From Mycobacterium adipatum (GTDB lineage: Bacteria > Actinomycetota > Actinomycetes > Mycobacteriales > Mycobacteriaceae), in the NCBI RefSeq assembly GCF_001644575.1, contig NZ_CP015596.1, positions 4,154,001-4,218,000 of the forward strand: a stretch of 64,000 bases of DNA, written 5' to 3'. The position numbers and the translations under genes are program-made. Shown one piece after another: positions 33,635 to 41,174 of the stretch (position 1 is its first letter; every line of letters begins with the position of its first letter). Under the pieces are notes generated by a model. It was not told where the DNA came from. It did no database searches and saw only the letters and a program-made list of their open reading frames with translations.

Positions 33635-33991
33635 CTAACTCAACGCATCGATGAGCGCCGCCAGTTGCCCCGGCGACACCGCCACCCCACACTGCCGACG
33701 CAGGTCGATCAGCGGCCGCGCGATGTTCTGCAGGTCGAGGAACTCGCCCGGGTGAGATAGGAAGTAGCCGCGCACCGAGTTCTCGGCGTCGACCGTCGAC
33801 TGACTACCGGCCGCCGTCAGGACATCGTTGGCCCCTGGCCGGGTGTCGAGATAACCACCCGCCTGGCTCAATACACCGCTGGCGACGGTGGCGAGGTTGC
33901 TTGCCGAGCACGGCGGCGCCGCCGCGGCACTCGGAGCGACGATCACGGACGCGGCAAGTCCACCGAGGACGAGCGTGGCAAGCGGTTTCAT
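33635..33991 (-). CDS. Haemophore-like haem-binding protein, secreted
   Basis: A 118-residue protein with a clear signal peptide (MKPLATLVLGGLAASVIVAP, then SAAAA). The mature part has two cysteines (C28 and C101) that could form a disulfide, and the helical pattern 'ASNLATVASGVLSQAGGYLDTRP', 'GYFLSHPGEFLDL' typical of the mycobacterial haemophore domain (Rv0203-like). Such proteins bind haem in the periplasm for iron uptake. Its nearness to an iron-type ABC operon fits. Its stop lies 4 nt from that of DUF1206 copy B. Confidence 0.72.
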   Translation of the reverse strand: MKPLATLVLGGLAASVIVAPSAAAAPPCSASNLATVASGVLSQAGGYLDTRPGANDVLTAAGSQSTVDAENSVRGYFLSHPGEFLDLQNIARPLIDLRRQCGVAVSPGQLAALIDALS

Positions 33992-34075
33992 GGCTCGATC
34001 CTGAGGCACCTGCGGCCCTCCCGCACCATCTTGTCGCGAACTGGACATGTCGGTGCGCCCGGTTAGTGTCGCGCC

Positions 34076-34957
34076 ATGTCGTCTCCCAGCCTCGCTCGCC
34101 AGGTCGATTTCCCGGCTCCGAACGGGACTTTTGACGCGGACAGGGCCATCGCCGCGGTCACCGCGTTCTGCACCACCTACGACGTGGCGCGCAACACCCG
34201 ATACACGGTCGTGCCGCGACTGGATGAGGCGTTGCGCATCGCCGCCCTCACCGGCCCGGACCGGCGCTGGCGACGGATGGCCCGGTGGTCGGGGAACAAC
34301 GATATCGAGGGCGTCCCGGAGACGGTGCAGCTCACCGATGAGCGCGACGTTCTCTACAACCGGTTCGTGGCCGGCCTGCCCGAAGCGGACTGGCTGCCCC
34401 CGAACACGGTGACCTCGGTCAGCCGGTGGGCACGGTTCTCTCCCGCCATGCGTGCGGCCCAGAAGGTGGGCCTCGGCTGGATATTGCCAGTTCAGCGTGA
34501 AATTCTGCTGGTTCCGATGCCGACGACGCGCTACGCCGACAGCGGCGGACGCGTGTTGCACTGCGACACCGGCAGACCGGCCATCGAGTGGTCCGACGGC
34601 TCGGGACCGTTCTATCTGCATGGCACCGAATTCGGCGCCGACCTGTATCGCACGGTCCTCGGCGGCCGTCTGCCCGTCCCGGCCATCGCCGCCATGCGCC
34701 ACGCCGGCCAGCGCGCAATCGCCATGCGCTACTTGACGTTCGACACGGCAGACGCTGCCGGCGCACAGCTACTCGACAGCGGTGTCTACCGGCTGCCCCT
34801 ACCACCGCGGCTCGCCGGAAGGGATCGGGCGTTCGCCTACTTCACCCGACTGGGCGCCACCCAGTCCATCCAGTGGGTGGATGCCCCGACCATCGACGGC
34901 GACCCGACGGATCGCGGCCGCGAGGCCCAACAGGAGGTGTCGATGCGCAACCTGTGA
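34076..34957 (+). CDS. Hypothetical protein (unknown function)
   Basis: A 293-residue protein with no signal peptide and no membrane helix. Recognisable features are an Arg/Trp-rich segment 'DRRWRRMARWSGNNDIEG' near residue 60, 'YLHGTEFGADLYRTVL' in the middle, and 'MRHAGQRAIAMRYLTFD' in the C-terminal half. I do not recognise the family. It is divergent from the haemophore-like gene and lies 51 nt upstream of the iron-type binding protein on the same strand. It may or may not belong to that operon, because a candidate iron box lies in between. Confidence 0.7.
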   Translation: MSSPSLARQVDFPAPNGTFDADRAIAAVTAFCTTYDVARNTRYTVVPRLDEALRIAALTGPDRRWRRMARWSGNNDIEGVPETVQLTDERDVLYNRFVAGLPEADWLPPNTVTSVSRWARFSPAMRAAQKVGLGWILPVQREILLVPMPTTRYADSGGRVLHCDTGRPAIEWSDGSGPFYLHGTEFGADLYRTVLGGRLPVPAIAAMRHAGQRAIAMRYLTFDTADAAGAQLLDSGVYRLPLPPRLAGRDRAFAYFTRLGATQSIQWVDAPTIDGDPTDRGREAQQEVSMRNL

Positions 34958-34961
34958 ATAT

Positions 34962-34980
34962 CGTGGGTAGGCCACCCTAT
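34962..34980 (+). promoter_or_regulatory. Weak IdeR-box candidate upstream of the iron-type ABC operon
   Basis: Aligned by eye to the 19-bp IdeR consensus, this stretch matches at about 12 of 19 positions, including TAGGC and CCTA, and contains the small inverted repeat GGGT..ACCC. A TATCCTTAT stretch follows at 34978-34986 and could be a -10 element. The match is below what would be convincing alone; the reason to list it is its place in front of an iron-type transporter. Confidence 0.35.
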
Positions 34981-35008
34981 CCTTATCGGGGGATGAAAGG
35001 ATTCCCCC

Positions 35009-36025
35009 ATGAGACCTCGGTTCAGCCGCATAGCCGCGGCGTTGTCCGTCATCGCAGTGGTCGCCTCGGCGACGGCGTGCTCGTCCGACGACGGGGGCGA
35101 CGAACTGCTGATCTACAACGCGCAGCACGAGTCCCTGACCAAGGAATGGATCGACGCGTTCACCAAGGAGACCGGCATCAAGGTCACCTATCGGCAGGGC
35201 GGCGACACCGAACTGGGCAATCAGCTCATCGCCGAGGGCGACTCCTCCCCGGCCGATGTGTTCCTCACCGAGAACTCGCCGGCGATGGCCGCGGTCGAGG
35301 ATGCCGGACTGTTCGCCGATGTCGACGCCGCCACCGTGGAGCAGGTACCCGCCGAGTACCGCCCGTCGACCAACAAATGGACCGGTGTGGCCGCACGCAC
35401 CACGGTGTTCGCCTACAACACCAGCAAGCTGCGCGAAGACCAGCTGCCCCGGTCGATCATGGATCTGCAGCAGCCCGAATGGAAGGGCCGTTGGGGCGCC
35501 CCGCCGCCCAAGGCCGATTTCCAGGCCATCGTCGCGGCGATGCTGCAGCTGACCGGCGAACAGGCCACCTCCGCGTGGCTGGCCGGCATGAAGACCAACG
35601 CGACCCTGCTGCAGGACAACATTGCGACCCTGCGCGCGGTGAACGACGGTGAGATCGACGGCGGGATCATCTACCACTACTACTGGTTCCGGGATCAGGC
35701 CAAGACCAAGGAGATCAGCGCCAACACCGCCCTGCACTACTTCCGCAACGAGGACCCGGGCGCATTCATCAGCATCTCCGGTGGCGGCGTCCTGGAATCG
35801 AGCAAGAAGAAGGACCAGGCTCAGCAGTTCCTGAAGTACATCACCGGCAAGTCCGGCCAGGAAGTTCTGGAGAAGGGCACCTCGTTCGAATACCCGGTGG
35901 CCAGCGGCGTGCCCGCCAACCCGGCACTGCCCGCGCTGGACACCCTGCAGGCACCGAAGGTCGATCCGTCCACGTTGGACGCTGCCAAGGTCACCGACCT
36001 GATGACCAAGGCCGGCCTGCTCTAG
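35009..36025 (+). CDS. Iron(III)-type ABC transporter substrate-binding lipoprotein
   Basis: A 338-residue protein with a lipoprotein signal peptide ending at C24 (SATAC). The mature part starts DELLIYNAQHESLTKEW, as in FbpA/FutA-type ferric-ion-binding proteins, with 'GGDTELGNQLIAEG' and 'PADVFLTENSPAM'. The consecutive tyrosines Y224-Y225 in 'IIYHYYWFRD' match the Tyr pair that holds iron in this class. Substrate is most likely Fe(III) or a ferric chelate, though related proteins carry other small anions or amines. The permease GTG directly follows its stop codon. Confidence 0.9.
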   Translation: MRPRFSRIAAALSVIAVVASATACSSDDGGDELLIYNAQHESLTKEWIDAFTKETGIKVTYRQGGDTELGNQLIAEGDSSPADVFLTENSPAMAAVEDAGLFADVDAATVEQVPAEYRPSTNKWTGVAARTTVFAYNTSKLREDQLPRSIMDLQQPEWKGRWGAPPPKADFQAIVAAMLQLTGEQATSAWLAGMKTNATLLQDNIATLRAVNDGEIDGGIIYHYYWFRDQAKTKEISANTALHYFRNEDPGAFISISGGGVLESSKKKDQAQQFLKYITGKSGQEVLEKGTSFEYPVASGVPANPALPALDTLQAPKVDPSTLDAAKVTDLMTKAGLL

Positions 36026-37585
36026 GTGGTCTCCGCGCACACCGACCCGACCACCCGACCGCGACCACCCGCCCGGCCGGGCCCCCTGCTGAGCGGCGGG
36101 ATCGCGGTGCTGGTCGCGGCGACGTTCATCCCGCTCGGCTATGTCGTGTGGGCGGTGGTCAGCACCGGCCCGGCACGCATCTACGAGTTGGTGGTGCGGC
36201 CGCGGGTGGGCGAACTGCTGATCAACACCGCCGGCCTGGTGCTGGTGACGGTGCCGCTGTGTGTGCTGCTCGGCATCGGGGCGGCGTGGCTGGTCGAACG
36301 CACCGATGTGCCCGGCGCCGCGGTCTGGCGTCCGCTGCTGGTGGCCCCCTTGGCGGTGCCCGCGTTCATCAACAGCTACGCCTGGGTCGGCGTGTGGCCG
36401 ACGCTGCACGGGTTCGGCGCCGGCGTGTTGGTCAGCACGTTGTCGTACTTCCCGTTCGTCTTCCTGCCGGCGGCGGCCACCCTGCGCCGGCTGGATCCCT
36501 CCATCGAGGAATCGGCACGGGCGCTGGGCTCCGGCACCGTCGGCATCTTCTTCCGGGTGGTGTTGCCACAGCTACGGCTGGCCGTGCTCGGTGGCGGACT
36601 GCTGATCGGGGTGCATCTGCTCGCCGAATACGGGGCGTTCGCGATGTTGCGCTTCGCGACGTTCACCACGGCCATTTTCGAACAGTTCCAGGCGACATTC
36701 GACGGTGCCGCCGGTGCCACCCTGGCCGGGGTACTGGTGCTGCTGTGCCTGGTGCTGCTGCTGGGTGAGGCGCTGCTGCGCGGCAATGCCCGATTCTCCA
36801 GGATCGGCTCCGGCGCGCCCCGGGCGGTGACGCGGATCCACTTGCGCGCGGCGACCATACCGGCCACCGCCGCACTGGCCGTGCTCACCATGCTGGCCCT
36901 GGGCGTTCCGGTGTGGACCCTGCTGCGGTGGCTGTGGATCGGCGGCGCCGCCGTCTGGGACATCGCCGATCTGGCCGAGGCGCTGAGCCAGACCGCGGTG
37001 TTGGCCGCGGTGGCCGCCGCCGTGACCACCGTGGCGGCGTTCCCGTTCGCGTGGCTGGCGGTCCGCTACAGCGGCGCCTTCGCGCGCATGGTGGAGGGTG
37101 CCAACTTCGTCACCAGTTCCATGCCCGGCATCGTCACCGCCCTGGCACTGGTCACCGTCGCCATCCGATTCGCGCCCCCGCTGTATCAGACCGCGATCCT
37201 GGTGCTGGGCGCCTACGTGCTGATGTTCCTGCCGCGGGCGCTGGTGAGTCTGCGCTCGGGGCTGGCCCAGGTGCCGCCCGGGCTGGAGGAGGCCTCTCGG
37301 TCACTGGGGGTATCGCCGGCGCGCAGTTTCGTGCGCGTCACGTTGCGGCTGACCGCGCCGGCGGCCGGTGCCGGTGCGGCGCTGGTGTTCGTGGCGGTGG
37401 CCACCGAACTGACCGCCACGCTGCTGCTCGCCCCGACCGGCACCCGGACCCTGGCGATGCGGTTCTGGTCGCTGTCGAGCGAGTTGGACTATGCGGCCGC
37501 CGCGCCGTACGCGCTTGTGCTGGTCGCCTTGTCGATCCCCGTGACGGTGGCCCTGTTCCGGCAAGCCACCCGGAGGACCGCATGA
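36026..37585 (+). CDS. Iron-type ABC transporter permease, double (FbpB-like)
   Basis: A 519-residue membrane protein with two fused permease halves of about six helices each. Each half has an EAA loop that docks the ATPase: 'IEESARALGSGTVGIFFRVVLP' near 160 and 'LEEASRSLGVSPARSFVRVTL' near 420. Fused halves are typical of the FbpB/FutB ferric transporters. The GTG start follows the binding-protein stop without a gap. The stop overlaps the ATPase start as ATGA. Confidence 0.92.
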   Translation: MVSAHTDPTTRPRPPARPGPLLSGGIAVLVAATFIPLGYVVWAVVSTGPARIYELVVRPRVGELLINTAGLVLVTVPLCVLLGIGAAWLVERTDVPGAAVWRPLLVAPLAVPAFINSYAWVGVWPTLHGFGAGVLVSTLSYFPFVFLPAAATLRRLDPSIEESARALGSGTVGIFFRVVLPQLRLAVLGGGLLIGVHLLAEYGAFAMLRFATFTTAIFEQFQATFDGAAGATLAGVLVLLCLVLLLGEALLRGNARFSRIGSGAPRAVTRIHLRAATIPATAALAVLTMLALGVPVWTLLRWLWIGGAAVWDIADLAEALSQTAVLAAVAAAVTTVAAFPFAWLAVRYSGAFARMVEGANFVTSSMPGIVTALALVTVAIRFAPPLYQTAILVLGAYVLMFLPRALVSLRSGLAQVPPGLEEASRSLGVSPARSFVRVTLRLTAPAAGAGAALVFVAVATELTATLLLAPTGTRTLAMRFWSLSSELDYAAAAPYALVLVALSIPVTVALFRQATRRTA

Positions 37586-38640
37586 CCGACCCGGCGCTGG
37601 CCATCCATGGCCTGACCAAGACGTTCACCGATCACCGGGTGCTCGACGGCGTCGACCTGACGCTGGAGCCGGGCAGCATCACCGCCGTCGTGGGCGCCTC
37701 GGGGTGCGGAAAGACCACGCTGCTACGCCTGGTCGCCGGCTTCGAGACCCCCGACGCGGGCACCATCGACATCGGCGGGCGTCGTGTCGCGTCCGCCGGC
37801 AGCGGCCTCGCCCCGCACCGCCGGTCGGTCGGCTATGTCGCACAGGACGGCGCATTGTTCCCCCACTTGACTGTCGGTGCGAACATCGCCTACGGGCTGC
37901 CCGGCCGGGCCCGCAGCGCATCGGTACGGGCCCGGGTCGCCGAGCTGCTCGAAACCGTCTCACTACAGCCATCTTTCGCCGAACGTCGCCCCCATGAGCT
38001 GTCCGGCGGCCAGCAACAACGCGTCGCACTGGCCCGCGCCATGGCCCGGCAACCAGCCCTGATGCTGCTCGACGAGCCGTTCTCCGCGCTCGACACCGGA
38101 CTGCGCGCGGCCACCCGCAAGGCCGTCATGAAGGTCCTCAACGACACCGGCGTCACCACACTGCTGGTCACCCACGATCAGGGCGAGGCGCTCTCGGTCG
38201 CCGACCAGGTGGCCGTGATGCGCGACGGTCGGTTCACCGGCGTGGGAACGCCGCAACAGGTCTACCGCACCCCCGGCAACCGGTTCACCGCCGAGTTCCT
38301 CGGCGACTGCGTGTTCCTGCCGTGCACCGTGCGCGCCGGGACCGCCGCCTGCGTCCTGGGCCAGATCCCGCTGGTCGCGCCGTCACCGGATGGTCCGGCC
38401 ACGCTGATGTTGCGTCCCGAACAGCTGGTTGCCATCGAGATCACCGACGCCACAACGGCACTCGATCCGGGAATCGGGATCGTGGTGGGTTCGGAGTTCC
38501 TCGGACACGATGTCCTGCTCACCATCGACACCGGCGGAGACACGCCGCCGATCACGGTGCGCCAGCACAGCATCTCCCCACCCGCGGTGTCGGCCAAGAT
38601 CCGCATCGAGATACTCGGTGGCGCCCTGGTGCTGCCATGA
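37582..38640 (+). CDS. Iron-type ABC transporter ATP-binding protein (FbpC-like)
   Basis: A 352-residue ATPase. Walker A is GASGCGKT (38-45), the signature LSGGQQQRVALARA, Walker B 'LMLLDEPFSALD', and the switch 'LLVTHDQGEAL'. A C-terminal TOBE-type regulatory domain occupies about 240-352, as in FbpC and other importers of the CUT1/ferric class. It starts at ATG 37582 overlapping the permease stop by 4 nt, and its own stop overlaps the start of the adenylation-acyltransferase gene by 4 nt. All four genes are thus translationally coupled. Confidence 0.93.
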   Translation: MTDPALAIHGLTKTFTDHRVLDGVDLTLEPGSITAVVGASGCGKTTLLRLVAGFETPDAGTIDIGGRRVASAGSGLAPHRRSVGYVAQDGALFPHLTVGANIAYGLPGRARSASVRARVAELLETVSLQPSFAERRPHELSGGQQQRVALARAMARQPALMLLDEPFSALDTGLRAATRKAVMKVLNDTGVTTLLVTHDQGEALSVADQVAVMRDGRFTGVGTPQQVYRTPGNRFTAEFLGDCVFLPCTVRAGTAACVLGQIPLVAPSPDGPATLMLRPEQLVAIEITDATTALDPGIGIVVGSEFLGHDVLLTIDTGGDTPPITVRQHSISPPAVSAKIRIEILGGALVLP

Positions 38641-41174
38641 AACACCTTGTCCGACATCTGCGGTCCTACGGTGATCGCAGCGCGGTCCATACCGCCGAAC
38701 GGACCCTGAGCTACCGGTCCCTCGCCGATCGCGTCGAGCGCACCGCCGCCGAGTTCGCCGGTGGGCGCCAGCTCATCCTGCTGGAGGCCCGCAACGACAT
38801 CGCCACCCTGGTGCACTATCTCGGCGCGCTGGCGGGCGGGCACGTCGTGCTGCCGGTGCCGCCGGGCGTCGACCACACCGACCTGCTGGCAACCTACCGC
38901 CCCGATATCGTCATCGACGCCACCGGCGTGCATCGCCGCGGCACCGGGGGCCACCAGCTGCACCCCGACCTGGCACTGCTGCTGTCCACCTCGGGCAGCA
39001 CCGGCTCGCCGAAGCTGGTCCGGCTCTCGGCGGCCAACCTGCTGGCCAACGCCGAATCCATCGCCGAATACCTCGATATTCGCGATATCGACTGTGCCGC
39101 AACGACGCTTCCGATGTCCTACTGCTACGGGCTCTCGGTCATCCACAGTCATCTGCTCCGTGGGGCCGCCCTGATCCTGACCGACCTCTCGGTCATCGAC
39201 GACGCGTTCTGGGAGCTGTTCGCCCGTCACCGCGGCACCTCGTTGGCCGGTGTGCCCTACACCTTCGACCTGCTGGACCGGATCGGCTTCGACACCATGG
39301 TCCTGCCGCACCTGCGCTACCTCACCCAGGCCGGCGGCCGACTGGAACCCGACCGGGTTCGCCAATTTGCCGCCCTCGGCCGACGCCGCGGCTGGCAACT
39401 GTTCGTCATGTACGGCGCCACCGAGGCCACCGCCCGGATGGCTTACCTGCCACCAGAACTCGCCGGAACCCGGGCCGAGGCGATAGGCCGGGCCGTCCCG
39501 GGCGGGCACCTGTGGATCGACGCACCGGACGGCGAGATCGGCGAACTCGTCTACCAGGGCCCCAACGTGATGATGGGCTACGCCCACAGCGCCGCCGACC
39601 TGGCATCCGCCCCCGGTACCGATGTCCTGCGCACCGGGGATCTGGCCCGGCGCGCTGAGGACGGGCTCTTCGAAGTTGTCGGCCGCGCCAACCGATTCGC
39701 CAAACTGTTCGGCCTGCGTATCGATCTGCAGCGGGTCGAGTCCACGTTGCGCGAGCGCGGGATCGCCGCGCTGTGCACCACCGACGACGACATCCTGGTC
39801 ACCGCCACCACCGCCGACGCGCAACGGGTGCGCCGCGCCGTCGGCGAGATCACCGGACTGCCCGCCGGATCGGTGCGCGCCGTCACCGTCGACGAATTGC
39901 CGATGCTGCCCTCGGGCAAGCCCGACTACCCCGCGGTGCGTGCACTTCGGCCCGAACAGAGCGCAGCCACCGCACTGCGCGCGGTCTTCGCCGACGTACT
40001 GCACCTGGACCCCGCGCACATCGACTCCGGCGCCAGCTTCGTGGACCTGGGCGGCAATTCGCTCAGCTACGTCACGATGTCGGTGCGCATCGAACGCGTG
40101 CTGCACGAGCTTCCGCCCGATTGGCATCGGCTGCCACTGGGTGAGCTCGAACAACTCACGCCCCGCAAGCGAGGCTGGGTCTCGACACTGGAGACCAGCG
40201 TGGCGCTGCGAGCCATCGCGATCGTGCTCATCGTCGGATCCCACGCCGAACTGTTCGAGATGTGGGGTGGCGCGCACATCCTGCTCGGTGTTGCCGGCTA
40301 CAACTTCGGCCGGTTCTGTCTGACCTCGGCACCGCGCGGCGACCGGGTCCGGCATCTCCGCAACACGATCGGCTGGATCGCGCTACCCGCCGTCGCCTGG
40401 GTGGCGATCACCATGACCTTCAGCGATGACTATGGGTGGTCGAACCTGTTGCTGGCCAACAAGTTCCTCGGCCCATTCGATAGTATGACCGCCGGTCGAC
40501 TGTGGTTCATCGAGGTGCTGGTATGGACCCTGGTGCTGTTGACCGTTCTGCTCTGGGTGCCCGCGGTGGACCGGCTGGAACGGCGGGGGCCGTTCGCGTT
40601 CGCCTTGGTGTTCCTGGCCGCGGGGGTGGTGCTGCGTTATGACGCACCGGGTCCCGATCCCGGCGAGGACGCCTGGTTCAACATGCTGGCCTTCTGGTTC
40701 TTCGCGGTGGGCTGGGCGGTGGCGAAGTCGTCGACGGTTTGGCAGCGCGCCGCGATCACCGCACTGCTCGCGGTCGGACTGTTCGGCTACTTCGGCGACC
40801 CGGTGCGCGAAGGGTTGGTCTTCGCCGGGATCACGCTGATGATCTGGTTGCCCGCCATCCGCTGCCCGGTGCTGCTGACCGGTGTGTTCGCCGCCCTGGC
40901 GGATGCCTCGCTGTACATCTATCTGACCCATTTCCAGATCTACCCGCTGTTCGGCGAGCACCGGCTGCTCGGTGTGCTCGCCGCACTGGTATTCGGAGTG
41001 GTGGTGGCCCAGCTGGTGACGCGGCTGCGTGCGGCCGTGCATCAACGCTCGCCGATCATCCCCTCCTGGACCAGGGTCGCGGCGATGACACCGTCGGCAC
41101 GCACCAGCGACGCGGTCATCACACCGCGCCCGCGGGAGGCCGCCGGGGACCGGGATTCCAGCAGATTCCACTGA
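38637..41174 (+). CDS. Adenylation-carrier-membrane acyltransferase fusion (A-PCP-AT3)
   Basis: An 845-residue three-part protein. Residues ~1-440 are an AMP-forming adenylation domain: P-loop STSGSTGSPK (117-126), YGATE (259-263), TGD (333-335), catalytic Lys428 in PSGKPDY. Residues ~441-510 are a carrier domain with the phosphopantetheine serine S475 in DLGGNSLS. Residues ~520-800 hold about ten membrane helices of an acyltransferase-3-like domain with the R-x10-H motif (R525, H536). The enzyme should activate an acid, load it on its own carrier, and pass it to an acceptor at the membrane. Coupling to an iron-type importer is unusual. Its last 133 bp overlap the thioesterase gene on the other strand, so the final ~45 residues may be unconserved. 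Confidence 0.85.
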   Translation: MKHLVRHLRSYGDRSAVHTAERTLSYRSLADRVERTAAEFAGGRQLILLEARNDIATLVHYLGALAGGHVVLPVPPGVDHTDLLATYRPDIVIDATGVHRRGTGGHQLHPDLALLLSTSGSTGSPKLVRLSAANLLANAESIAEYLDIRDIDCAATTLPMSYCYGLSVIHSHLLRGAALILTDLSVIDDAFWELFARHRGTSLAGVPYTFDLLDRIGFDTMVLPHLRYLTQAGGRLEPDRVRQFAALGRRRGWQLFVMYGATEATARMAYLPPELAGTRAEAIGRAVPGGHLWIDAPDGEIGELVYQGPNVMMGYAHSAADLASAPGTDVLRTGDLARRAEDGLFEVVGRANRFAKLFGLRIDLQRVESTLRERGIAALCTTDDDILVTATTADAQRVRRAVGEITGLPAGSVRAVTVDELPMLPSGKPDYPAVRALRPEQSAATALRAVFADVLHLDPAHIDSGASFVDLGGNSLSYVTMSVRIERVLHELPPDWHRLPLGELEQLTPRKRGWVSTLETSVALRAIAIVLIVGSHAELFEMWGGAHILLGVAGYNFGRFCLTSAPRGDRVRHLRNTIGWIALPAVAWVAITMTFSDDYGWSNLLLANKFLGPFDSMTAGRLWFIEVLVWTLVLLTVLLWVPAVDRLERRGPFAFALVFLAAGVVLRYDAPGPDPGEDAWFNMLAFWFFAVGWAVAKSSTVWQRAAITALLAVGLFGYFGDPVREGLVFAGITLMIWLPAIRCPVLLTGVFAALADASLYIYLTHFQIYPLFGEHRLLGVLAALVFGVVVAQLVTRLRAAVHQRSPIIPSWTRVAAMTPSARTSDAVITPRPREAAGDRDSSRFH

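Follow-up and report, generated by a model that had tools for sequence, protein, structure and literature searches.

A putative single-polypeptide adenylation-carrier-AT3 acyltransferase encoded with a predicted ferric importer in Mycobacterium adipatum

According to our analysis, a 64,000-nucleotide stretch of the Mycobacterium adipatum genome (assembly GCF_001644575.1, contig NZ_CP015596.1, positions 4,154,001 to 4,218,000 of the forward strand; hereafter the window) encodes, as the last gene of a four-gene operon, an 845-residue protein that joins an adenylation domain, a carrier domain and an AT3 membrane acyltransferase domain (hereafter the fusion). This architecture is well supported, and the product, the role and the response to iron are put forward as hypotheses. 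With a probability of roughly one half, we propose that the fusion acts as a self-loading transmembrane acyltransferase in concert with the ferric importer encoded before it, probably under iron control, and that its product outside the cytoplasm aids import of the FbpABC type.

Pfam recognizes in the fusion, in this order, AMP-binding (135 bits; cut-off 29.9), PP-binding (34.5; 20.8) and Acyl_transf_3 (37.5; 31). Lys428 and Ser475 do not change in any of 53 aligned sequences, one of which is the query; Arg525 is kept in 50 rows and His536 in 51, and the exceptions include two Photobacterium rows with SGNH replacing AT3. A first-pass annotation, made from the letters of this stretch, had read the gene as an adenylation-carrier-membrane acyltransferase in one frame, and the open 845-residue frame, the three Pfam domains and the invariant K428 and S475 confirm it. 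A chance open reading frame or a frameshift artefact was ruled out, since the three-domain frame is kept in relatives. The gene is present once in the 6.05 Mb genome, where 19 further matches all score at most 54 bits. It stands behind the genes for a binding protein, a fused permease and an ATPase (Table 1), and the successive junctions, one of 0 nt and two ATGA overlaps, bear out the tight coupling of the four genes noted earlier.

Table 1. Coordinates of the fusion gene, its domains and the associated features in the window
Feature	Coordinates	Strand	Basis and remarks
Fusion gene, adenylation-carrier-AT3	38637..41174	+	845 aa; open reading frame and Pfam
Adenylation domain, residues 1-437	38637..39947	+	Pfam; Tyr164 where A domains of non-ribosomal peptide synthetases (NRPS) have the amino-acid-binding Asp
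Carrier domain, residues 444-500	39966..40136	+	Ser475 codon 40059-40061; followed by LPxxW motif (P493, W496 invariant)
AT3 membrane domain, residues 508-804	40158..41048	+	R525, H536, S758xxxY762 and H765 kept; Thr577 replaces the Arg of ordinary AT3s
Binding protein, FbpA/SfuA/HitA ferric type	35009..36025	+	Structure-homology search; H40, E88, Y224, Y225 align with ligand motifs
ATP-binding cassette (ABC) permease, two permease domains on one chain	36026..37585	+	Pfam/NCBIfam domains
ABC ATPase, start set at ATGA overlap	37582..38640	+	
Predicted iron-box-like sites, two overlapping 19-mers at 34962 and 34967, 12/19 each	34962..34985		Just upstream of the binding-protein gene

The three genes preceding the fusion (35009-38640) encode a predicted importer of Fe3+, assigned to the FbpABC type by its binding protein. 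Among solved structures, this protein matched 8k7n best (E 2.6e-128), followed by YfuA, SfuA and HitA, and it retains the H, E and YY motifs; we take H40, E88, Y224 and Y225 to be the iron ligands. The permease and the ATPase belong to related ABC families.

The putative link between the fusion and iron is well supported by genome comparison. Within the genus, 148 genomes were scanned with thresholds of E <= 1e-60 for the fusion and E <= 1e-30 for an FbpA-like protein, which were found in 59 and 68 genomes, respectively; the FbpA-like protein was present in all 59 genomes with the fusion and in 9 of the 89 others (Fisher p 4e-32). At 48 of the 64 places where the fusion occurs in the genus, the binding protein lies at most 10 kb away. 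Twelve fusion genomes have no close binding protein (at least 70% identity), and all twelve have a distant one (36-40% identity), which adjoins the fusion in one of them (G014) and lies elsewhere in the other 11; this distant form was found in 7 of the 87 genomes that lack both the fusion and the close form. In an even draw of actinobacterial genomes, 18 of 298, from 15 of 182 genera, matched the fusion at E 1e-60, and 16 of these matches reach AT3 (G050, with the adenylation part only, and G395, which is partial, being left out; G340, among the 16, ends at a contig edge and had no upstream region for scoring). The binding protein (E <= 1e-25) occurred in 15 of the 18 matching genomes and in 83 of the 280 others (p 8e-6).

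The arrangement of the genes differs between groups. Relative to the fusion, the transporter lies upstream in Mycobacterium and mostly downstream in Rhodococcus (convergent at L047), is divergent in Streptomyces and convergent in Agromyces; some mycobacterial loci (e.g., L034, L038 and L040) have no ABC genes beside the fusion. When six neighbour genes were used as queries across the fetched loci, just the three ABC genes turned up outside Mycobacterium, and the MHB, DUF1206 and TesB neighbours were not found at the fetched loci there. The binding protein is common to all 15 Streptomyces loci and to nine of the 11 Rhodococcus loci, counted without Streptomyces L054 (a 3.7 kb contig) and Rhodococcus L051.

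Sites resembling iron boxes point the same way. We scored 19-mers against the DtxR/IdeR consensus, and the cut of 13/19 was chosen after the first scores had been inspected. A site of at least 13/19 precedes the fusion or the binding-protein gene at 37 of 43 transporter loci: 10 of 15 in mycobacteria, all 15 in Streptomyces and 12 of 13 in the Rhodococcus group, which takes in Agromyces and Phycicoccus. Several of the loci counted are near-identical strains. Elsewhere at these loci, such scores were reached by 3 of 268,797 (mycobacterial), 0 of 246,159 (Streptomyces) and 12 of 280,588 (Rhodococcus-group) 19-mers; 11 of the last 12 lie directly before the binding-protein gene, and most Rhodococcus-group loci have separate sites ahead of the fusion and ahead of the binding protein. 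A site of at least 13/19 is also present at three Rhodococcus loci without a visible transporter (L045, L048 and L051). Among 13 transporter-less loci, nine have one between 250 nt before and 60 nt after the start, and none of about 223,000 other 19-mers reaches 13; the four without are L134, L136, L144 and L149. The last of these is a second copy of the fusion in G097, 49% identical, with no ABC genes nearby.

Within the 64 kb of the window, 12/19 is the highest score, reached by eight 19-mers, and the site predicted before the binding-protein gene is suggestive only; at the same place, 15 mycobacterial relatives score 11-16 of 19. Two Photobacterium loci score 13/19 to the DtxR consensus; no background was taken for them, and they are not counted in support. 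Overall, these comparisons suggest that the fusion is probably induced by iron starvation or otherwise under iron control, and they lend support to the earlier idea that the fusion and the iron transporter share one iron-controlled purpose, as do the co-occurrence and the differing gene orders.

The third domain belongs to the AT3/TmAT group by fold and homology. In the AT3-set rows, the R-x10-H motif of transmembrane helix (TMH) 1, formed by R525 and H536, has its Arg in 36 of 37 (one gap) and its His in 37 of 37. Foldseek gave no match to the AT3 model at E <= 0.001; in a second look with VIA, the best rows for this model were HGSNAT and GWT1, which supports a TmAT fold. Pfam, motifs and fold agree with the AT3-like assignment first made from the letters alone. 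We do not claim an acyl-CoA-dependent AT3, because the RxxR motif of TMH3, which matters for function in those AT3s that have been studied, is not retained. By the motif definitions of PMC12423673 and PMC9833829, the first Arg of this motif occurs in 0 of 37 fusion-family rows and in 34 of 36 ordinary AT3s, and the Phe of the TMH2 motif FxxxxG again in 0 of 37 (33 Leu, 3 Met, one gap) and 34 of 36; the polar residue three positions before the TMH1 Arg is also lost in the family. Of 37 ordinary AT3 loci, 36 entered this comparison, among them two short fragments, and the family row L064 is possibly partly out of frame. Since the family has lost the residues associated with acyl-CoA binding, we infer, with good reason, that the fused carrier and not acyl-CoA serves as acyl donor, which favours the earlier suggestion that the protein's own carrier could do so. 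The AT3/TmAT enzymes OafB, OatA and HGSNAT differ from the fusion in having the first Arg of TMH3, the Phe of TMH2 and the polar residue of TMH1, and the fusion brings its own adenylation and carrier domains. Passages available to us from an AT3 review name fusions with SGNH and alanine racemase domains, not the adenylation-carrier-AT3 type (PMC9558356).

Tyr164 of the adenylation domain aligns with the Asp that holds the amino acid in LgrA, and the Asp expected of a Dlt-type adenylation domain is absent; amino-acid activation is not favoured on this ground. The best NCBIfam match of the domain is TIGR03098, an exosortase-A-associated acyl-CoA ligase, at 160 bits and far under the cut-off of 592. 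In a Pseudomonas relative (L098), an amino-acid adenylation domain (TIGR01733, 344 bits; cut-off 317) is joined to carrier and AT3 domains, so the substrate of adenylation need not be common to the whole family. To judge by its domains, the M. adipatum protein would activate a carboxylic acid lacking an alpha-amino group and load it onto the phosphopantetheine arm at Ser475. Given the residue loss, this arm, instead of acyl-CoA, would enter the AT3 pore, and the acyl group would, as AT3 biology suggests, be handed to an acceptor outside the cytoplasm. In a last, hypothetical step, the acylated product, a tethered or secreted ferric ligand, would help to bring Fe3+ to the FbpA-type binding protein.

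In the Dlt system, an adenylating enzyme activates an acid, a carrier holds it and a membrane acyltransferase moves it across the membrane. By analogy, the fusion could be viewed as the logic of DltA-DltC-DltB combined with the AT3 fold, in place of MBOAT, in one polypeptide. Activation, holding on a carrier and membrane transfer are what it shares with DltA-DltC-DltB(-DltD), which D-alanylates teichoic acids; unlike that system, it is a single chain with AT3 for MBOAT, has no amino-acid-binding Asp, and has iron-box-like sites and a ferric ABC partner.

Split and swapped arrangements exist as well. On a Metabacillus plasmid, the gene order is acyl carrier protein, ligase, MBOAT, a 304-residue protein, Fe3+ binding protein, permease and ATPase. 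The ligase is 38% identical over the aligned part, and the "acyl carrier protein", so named in the record, scores under the Pfam and NCBIfam cut-offs. A Fur-like site of 16/19 lies 278 nt before the carrier gene, and 2 of the 17,356 19-mers of the locus score as high. In Photobacterium, an adenylation-carrier-SGNH fusion, whose carrier is visible by alignment and receives no Pfam call, adjoins an MBOAT. Both MBOATs are DltB-like by TIGR04091 (165 bits in Metabacillus, 162 in Photobacterium), below the cut-off of 375. These arrangements suggest that the same activation and carrier logic pairs with either AT3 or MBOAT and that it stands beside a ferric transporter in two phyla, the second by way of one record.

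Several observations weigh against a general partnership with the importer under iron control, the single Metabacillus record among them. The co-occurrence tests ignore shared ancestry, and their counts take in near-identical strains. In the even draw, outside the genus, the transporter lies within about 8 kb at just 3 of 12 AT3-reaching loci (one on a contig of 6 kb); one actinobacterial genome (G368) has the fusion and no SBP_bac_6 match, which contradicts an obligate coupling of the fusion to FbpA. At ten alphaproteobacterial loci no neighbour is common to four or more, and Pseudomonas-group loci showed no consistent neighbour either. As to the sites, 5 of the 15 mycobacterial transporter loci, those most closely related to the window, score just 11-12, and none of the four mycobacterial loci without transporter has a box of at least 13. 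Fur-like and ICE-like scores at alpha, gamma and Pseudomonas loci were not above the background of the same locus, and universal iron control of the family is not supported by the proteobacterial loci. The second position of the TMH3 RxxR motif is R or K in 16 of 37 family rows (34 of 36 ordinary AT3s). From M. smegmatis, the available text reports that deleting the permease of the ferric ABC system discussed below had no effect while one siderophore remained (PMC6684656), and we could not confirm a fusion gene beside msmeg_3633 in that species. The linkage to an ABC transporter, which had been expected to be consistent across genomes, is strong in Mycobacterium, Rhodococcus and Streptomyces, is seen at a minority of the loci outside the genus in the even draw and is not consistent in proteobacteria; the first interpretation as a whole is partly supported.

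Published work on the related transporter gives the proposal a context. FbpABC, SfuABC, HitABC and the M. smegmatis system msmeg_3633-3635-3636 resemble the importer of the window in their ferric-type binding protein and related ABC permease and ATPase. According to the accessible passages of PMC6684656, the M. smegmatis system sustains growth at low iron once both siderophores are gone, expressing the transport operon brought growth back, and M. vanbaalenii, for which a fusion protein is on record (P0066), has orthologues of the operon; these passages describe a three-gene transport operon and mention no acyltransferase. Likewise, the passages seen of PMC10597346 report that msmeg_3635 and 3636 are up under sodium citrate and do not mention the fusion. 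Our literature search found no recognized description of an adenylation-carrier-AT3 fusion, which is no proof of absence, subscription papers being mostly outside that search.

We tentatively suggest a possible iron-uptake route, so far undescribed, in which a one-protein, carrier-fed acyltransferase acylates an outside molecule to give a tethered or secreted ferric ligand that feeds FbpABC. If so, ferric uptake called "siderophore-independent" in mycobacteria would rely on a hidden acyl product, and the donor of AT3 would have switched from CoA to a fused carrier. FbpABC-type ferric import would gain a biosynthetic partner for which the literature search returned no description, offering an explanation for siderophore-independent iron uptake by mycobacteria, and an AT3 enzyme with a built-in carrier donor would unite Dlt logic with the AT3 fold.

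A somewhat unlikely alternative is that an envelope lipid or glycan is the target, acylated by the fusion in a broad reaction to iron shortage (affecting charge, permeability or protection); the fusion would then be co-regulated with the importer and make no iron ligand. AT3 proteins mostly acylate surface glycans, as the review passages state (PMC9558356), two relatives of the adenylation domain lie in polysaccharide clusters, and both the sites at nine of 13 loci without nearby ABC genes and the genome lacking any SBP_bac_6 match would fit; however, the tie is specific to one type of transporter, as seen in the 59 of 59 genomes of the genus and in the adjacency under differing gene orders.

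Bare Fe3+ is the known ligand of FbpA-type proteins. This speaks against the unlikely possibility that the fusion works as a minimal synthetase for a small, diffusible siderophore, its AT3 domain linking the acid on the carrier with a common hydroxy or amino compound and releasing the product outside. Nor did Pfam find within the 845 residues a condensation domain, the mark of NRPS siderophore synthetases, and apart from the ABC genes no conserved neighbour was found in all three actinobacterial groups. Such a synthetase would nevertheless agree with the iron-box-like sites, with the modelled structure of the adenylation-carrier part, which resembles, among others, the siderophore modules EntF, an EntE-EntB fusion and PvdL, and with the aid that the ferric ABC system gives to a double siderophore mutant, as reported in the passages of PMC6684656.

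It is very unlikely that the linkage is historical, an ordinary acyltransferase having come by chance to lie beside an iron operon and been carried along. The lack of a consistent iron neighbour in proteobacterial relatives and the occurrence of plasmid copies (101 records match the query, 54 of them over at least 80% of it) would suit such a history, but copies without ABC genes have iron-box-like sites of their own, at most Rhodococcus-group loci the fusion and the binding protein each have a separate site in front, and in Metabacillus another type of acyltransferase has the same kind of partners. Finally, that AT3 still takes acyl-CoA, the adenylation and carrier domains serving another reaction, is highly improbable despite the retained R525 and H536, the R or K at the second RxxR position and the preference for acyl-CoA over a carrier protein in the passages of the 2022 AT3 review (PMC9558356), given the complete loss of the first TMH3 Arg and the TMH2 Phe and the invariance of P493 and W496 in the carrier-to-AT3 linker (53 of 53 rows, although two AT3-less Photobacterium rows are included).

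The fusion family is wide. In the protein search, 7928 of 7997 scored candidates passed E 1e-3, many of them sharing the adenylation domain alone; the first 20 matches listed, query included, are at least 80% identical and all have the three Pfam domains. The nearest named relatives are in Mycobacterium and Mycolicibacterium. A scan of one genome per species gave 79 loci, some of which match only through the adenylation part; they come from Mycobacterium, Rhodococcus, Streptomyces, Agromyces, Phycicoccus, several Alphaproteobacteria and other groups. Relatives in Pseudomonas and Pantoea (L098-L106) are 26-29% identical, and Pfam calls no AT3 in L104.

Just upstream of the operon, a gene on the reverse strand (33635-34702) encodes a protein with a haemophore (MHB) domain, also seen at the loci of several mycobacterial relatives, a possible further link to iron. 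At the other end (41042-41174), the fusion gene overlaps by its 3' end the 3' end of a convergent gene for a TesB-like thioesterase, as it does in L028, L029 and other close relatives; the tail encoded there has very low model confidence. Plasmid-borne pairs of fusion and ferric ABC genes in Mycolicibacterium and Rhodococcus (L107, L108 and L116) lie amid metal-related genes: L107 and L116 include genes for a cadmium transporter, a P-type ATPase and ArsR, and L107 and L108 include BlaI/M56 pairs. On the Rhizobium plasmids L153 and L155, relatives with the adenylation domain only adjoin genes for transketolase and for a TonB siderophore receptor; FhuB or a different iron-siderophore ABC gene lies close by.

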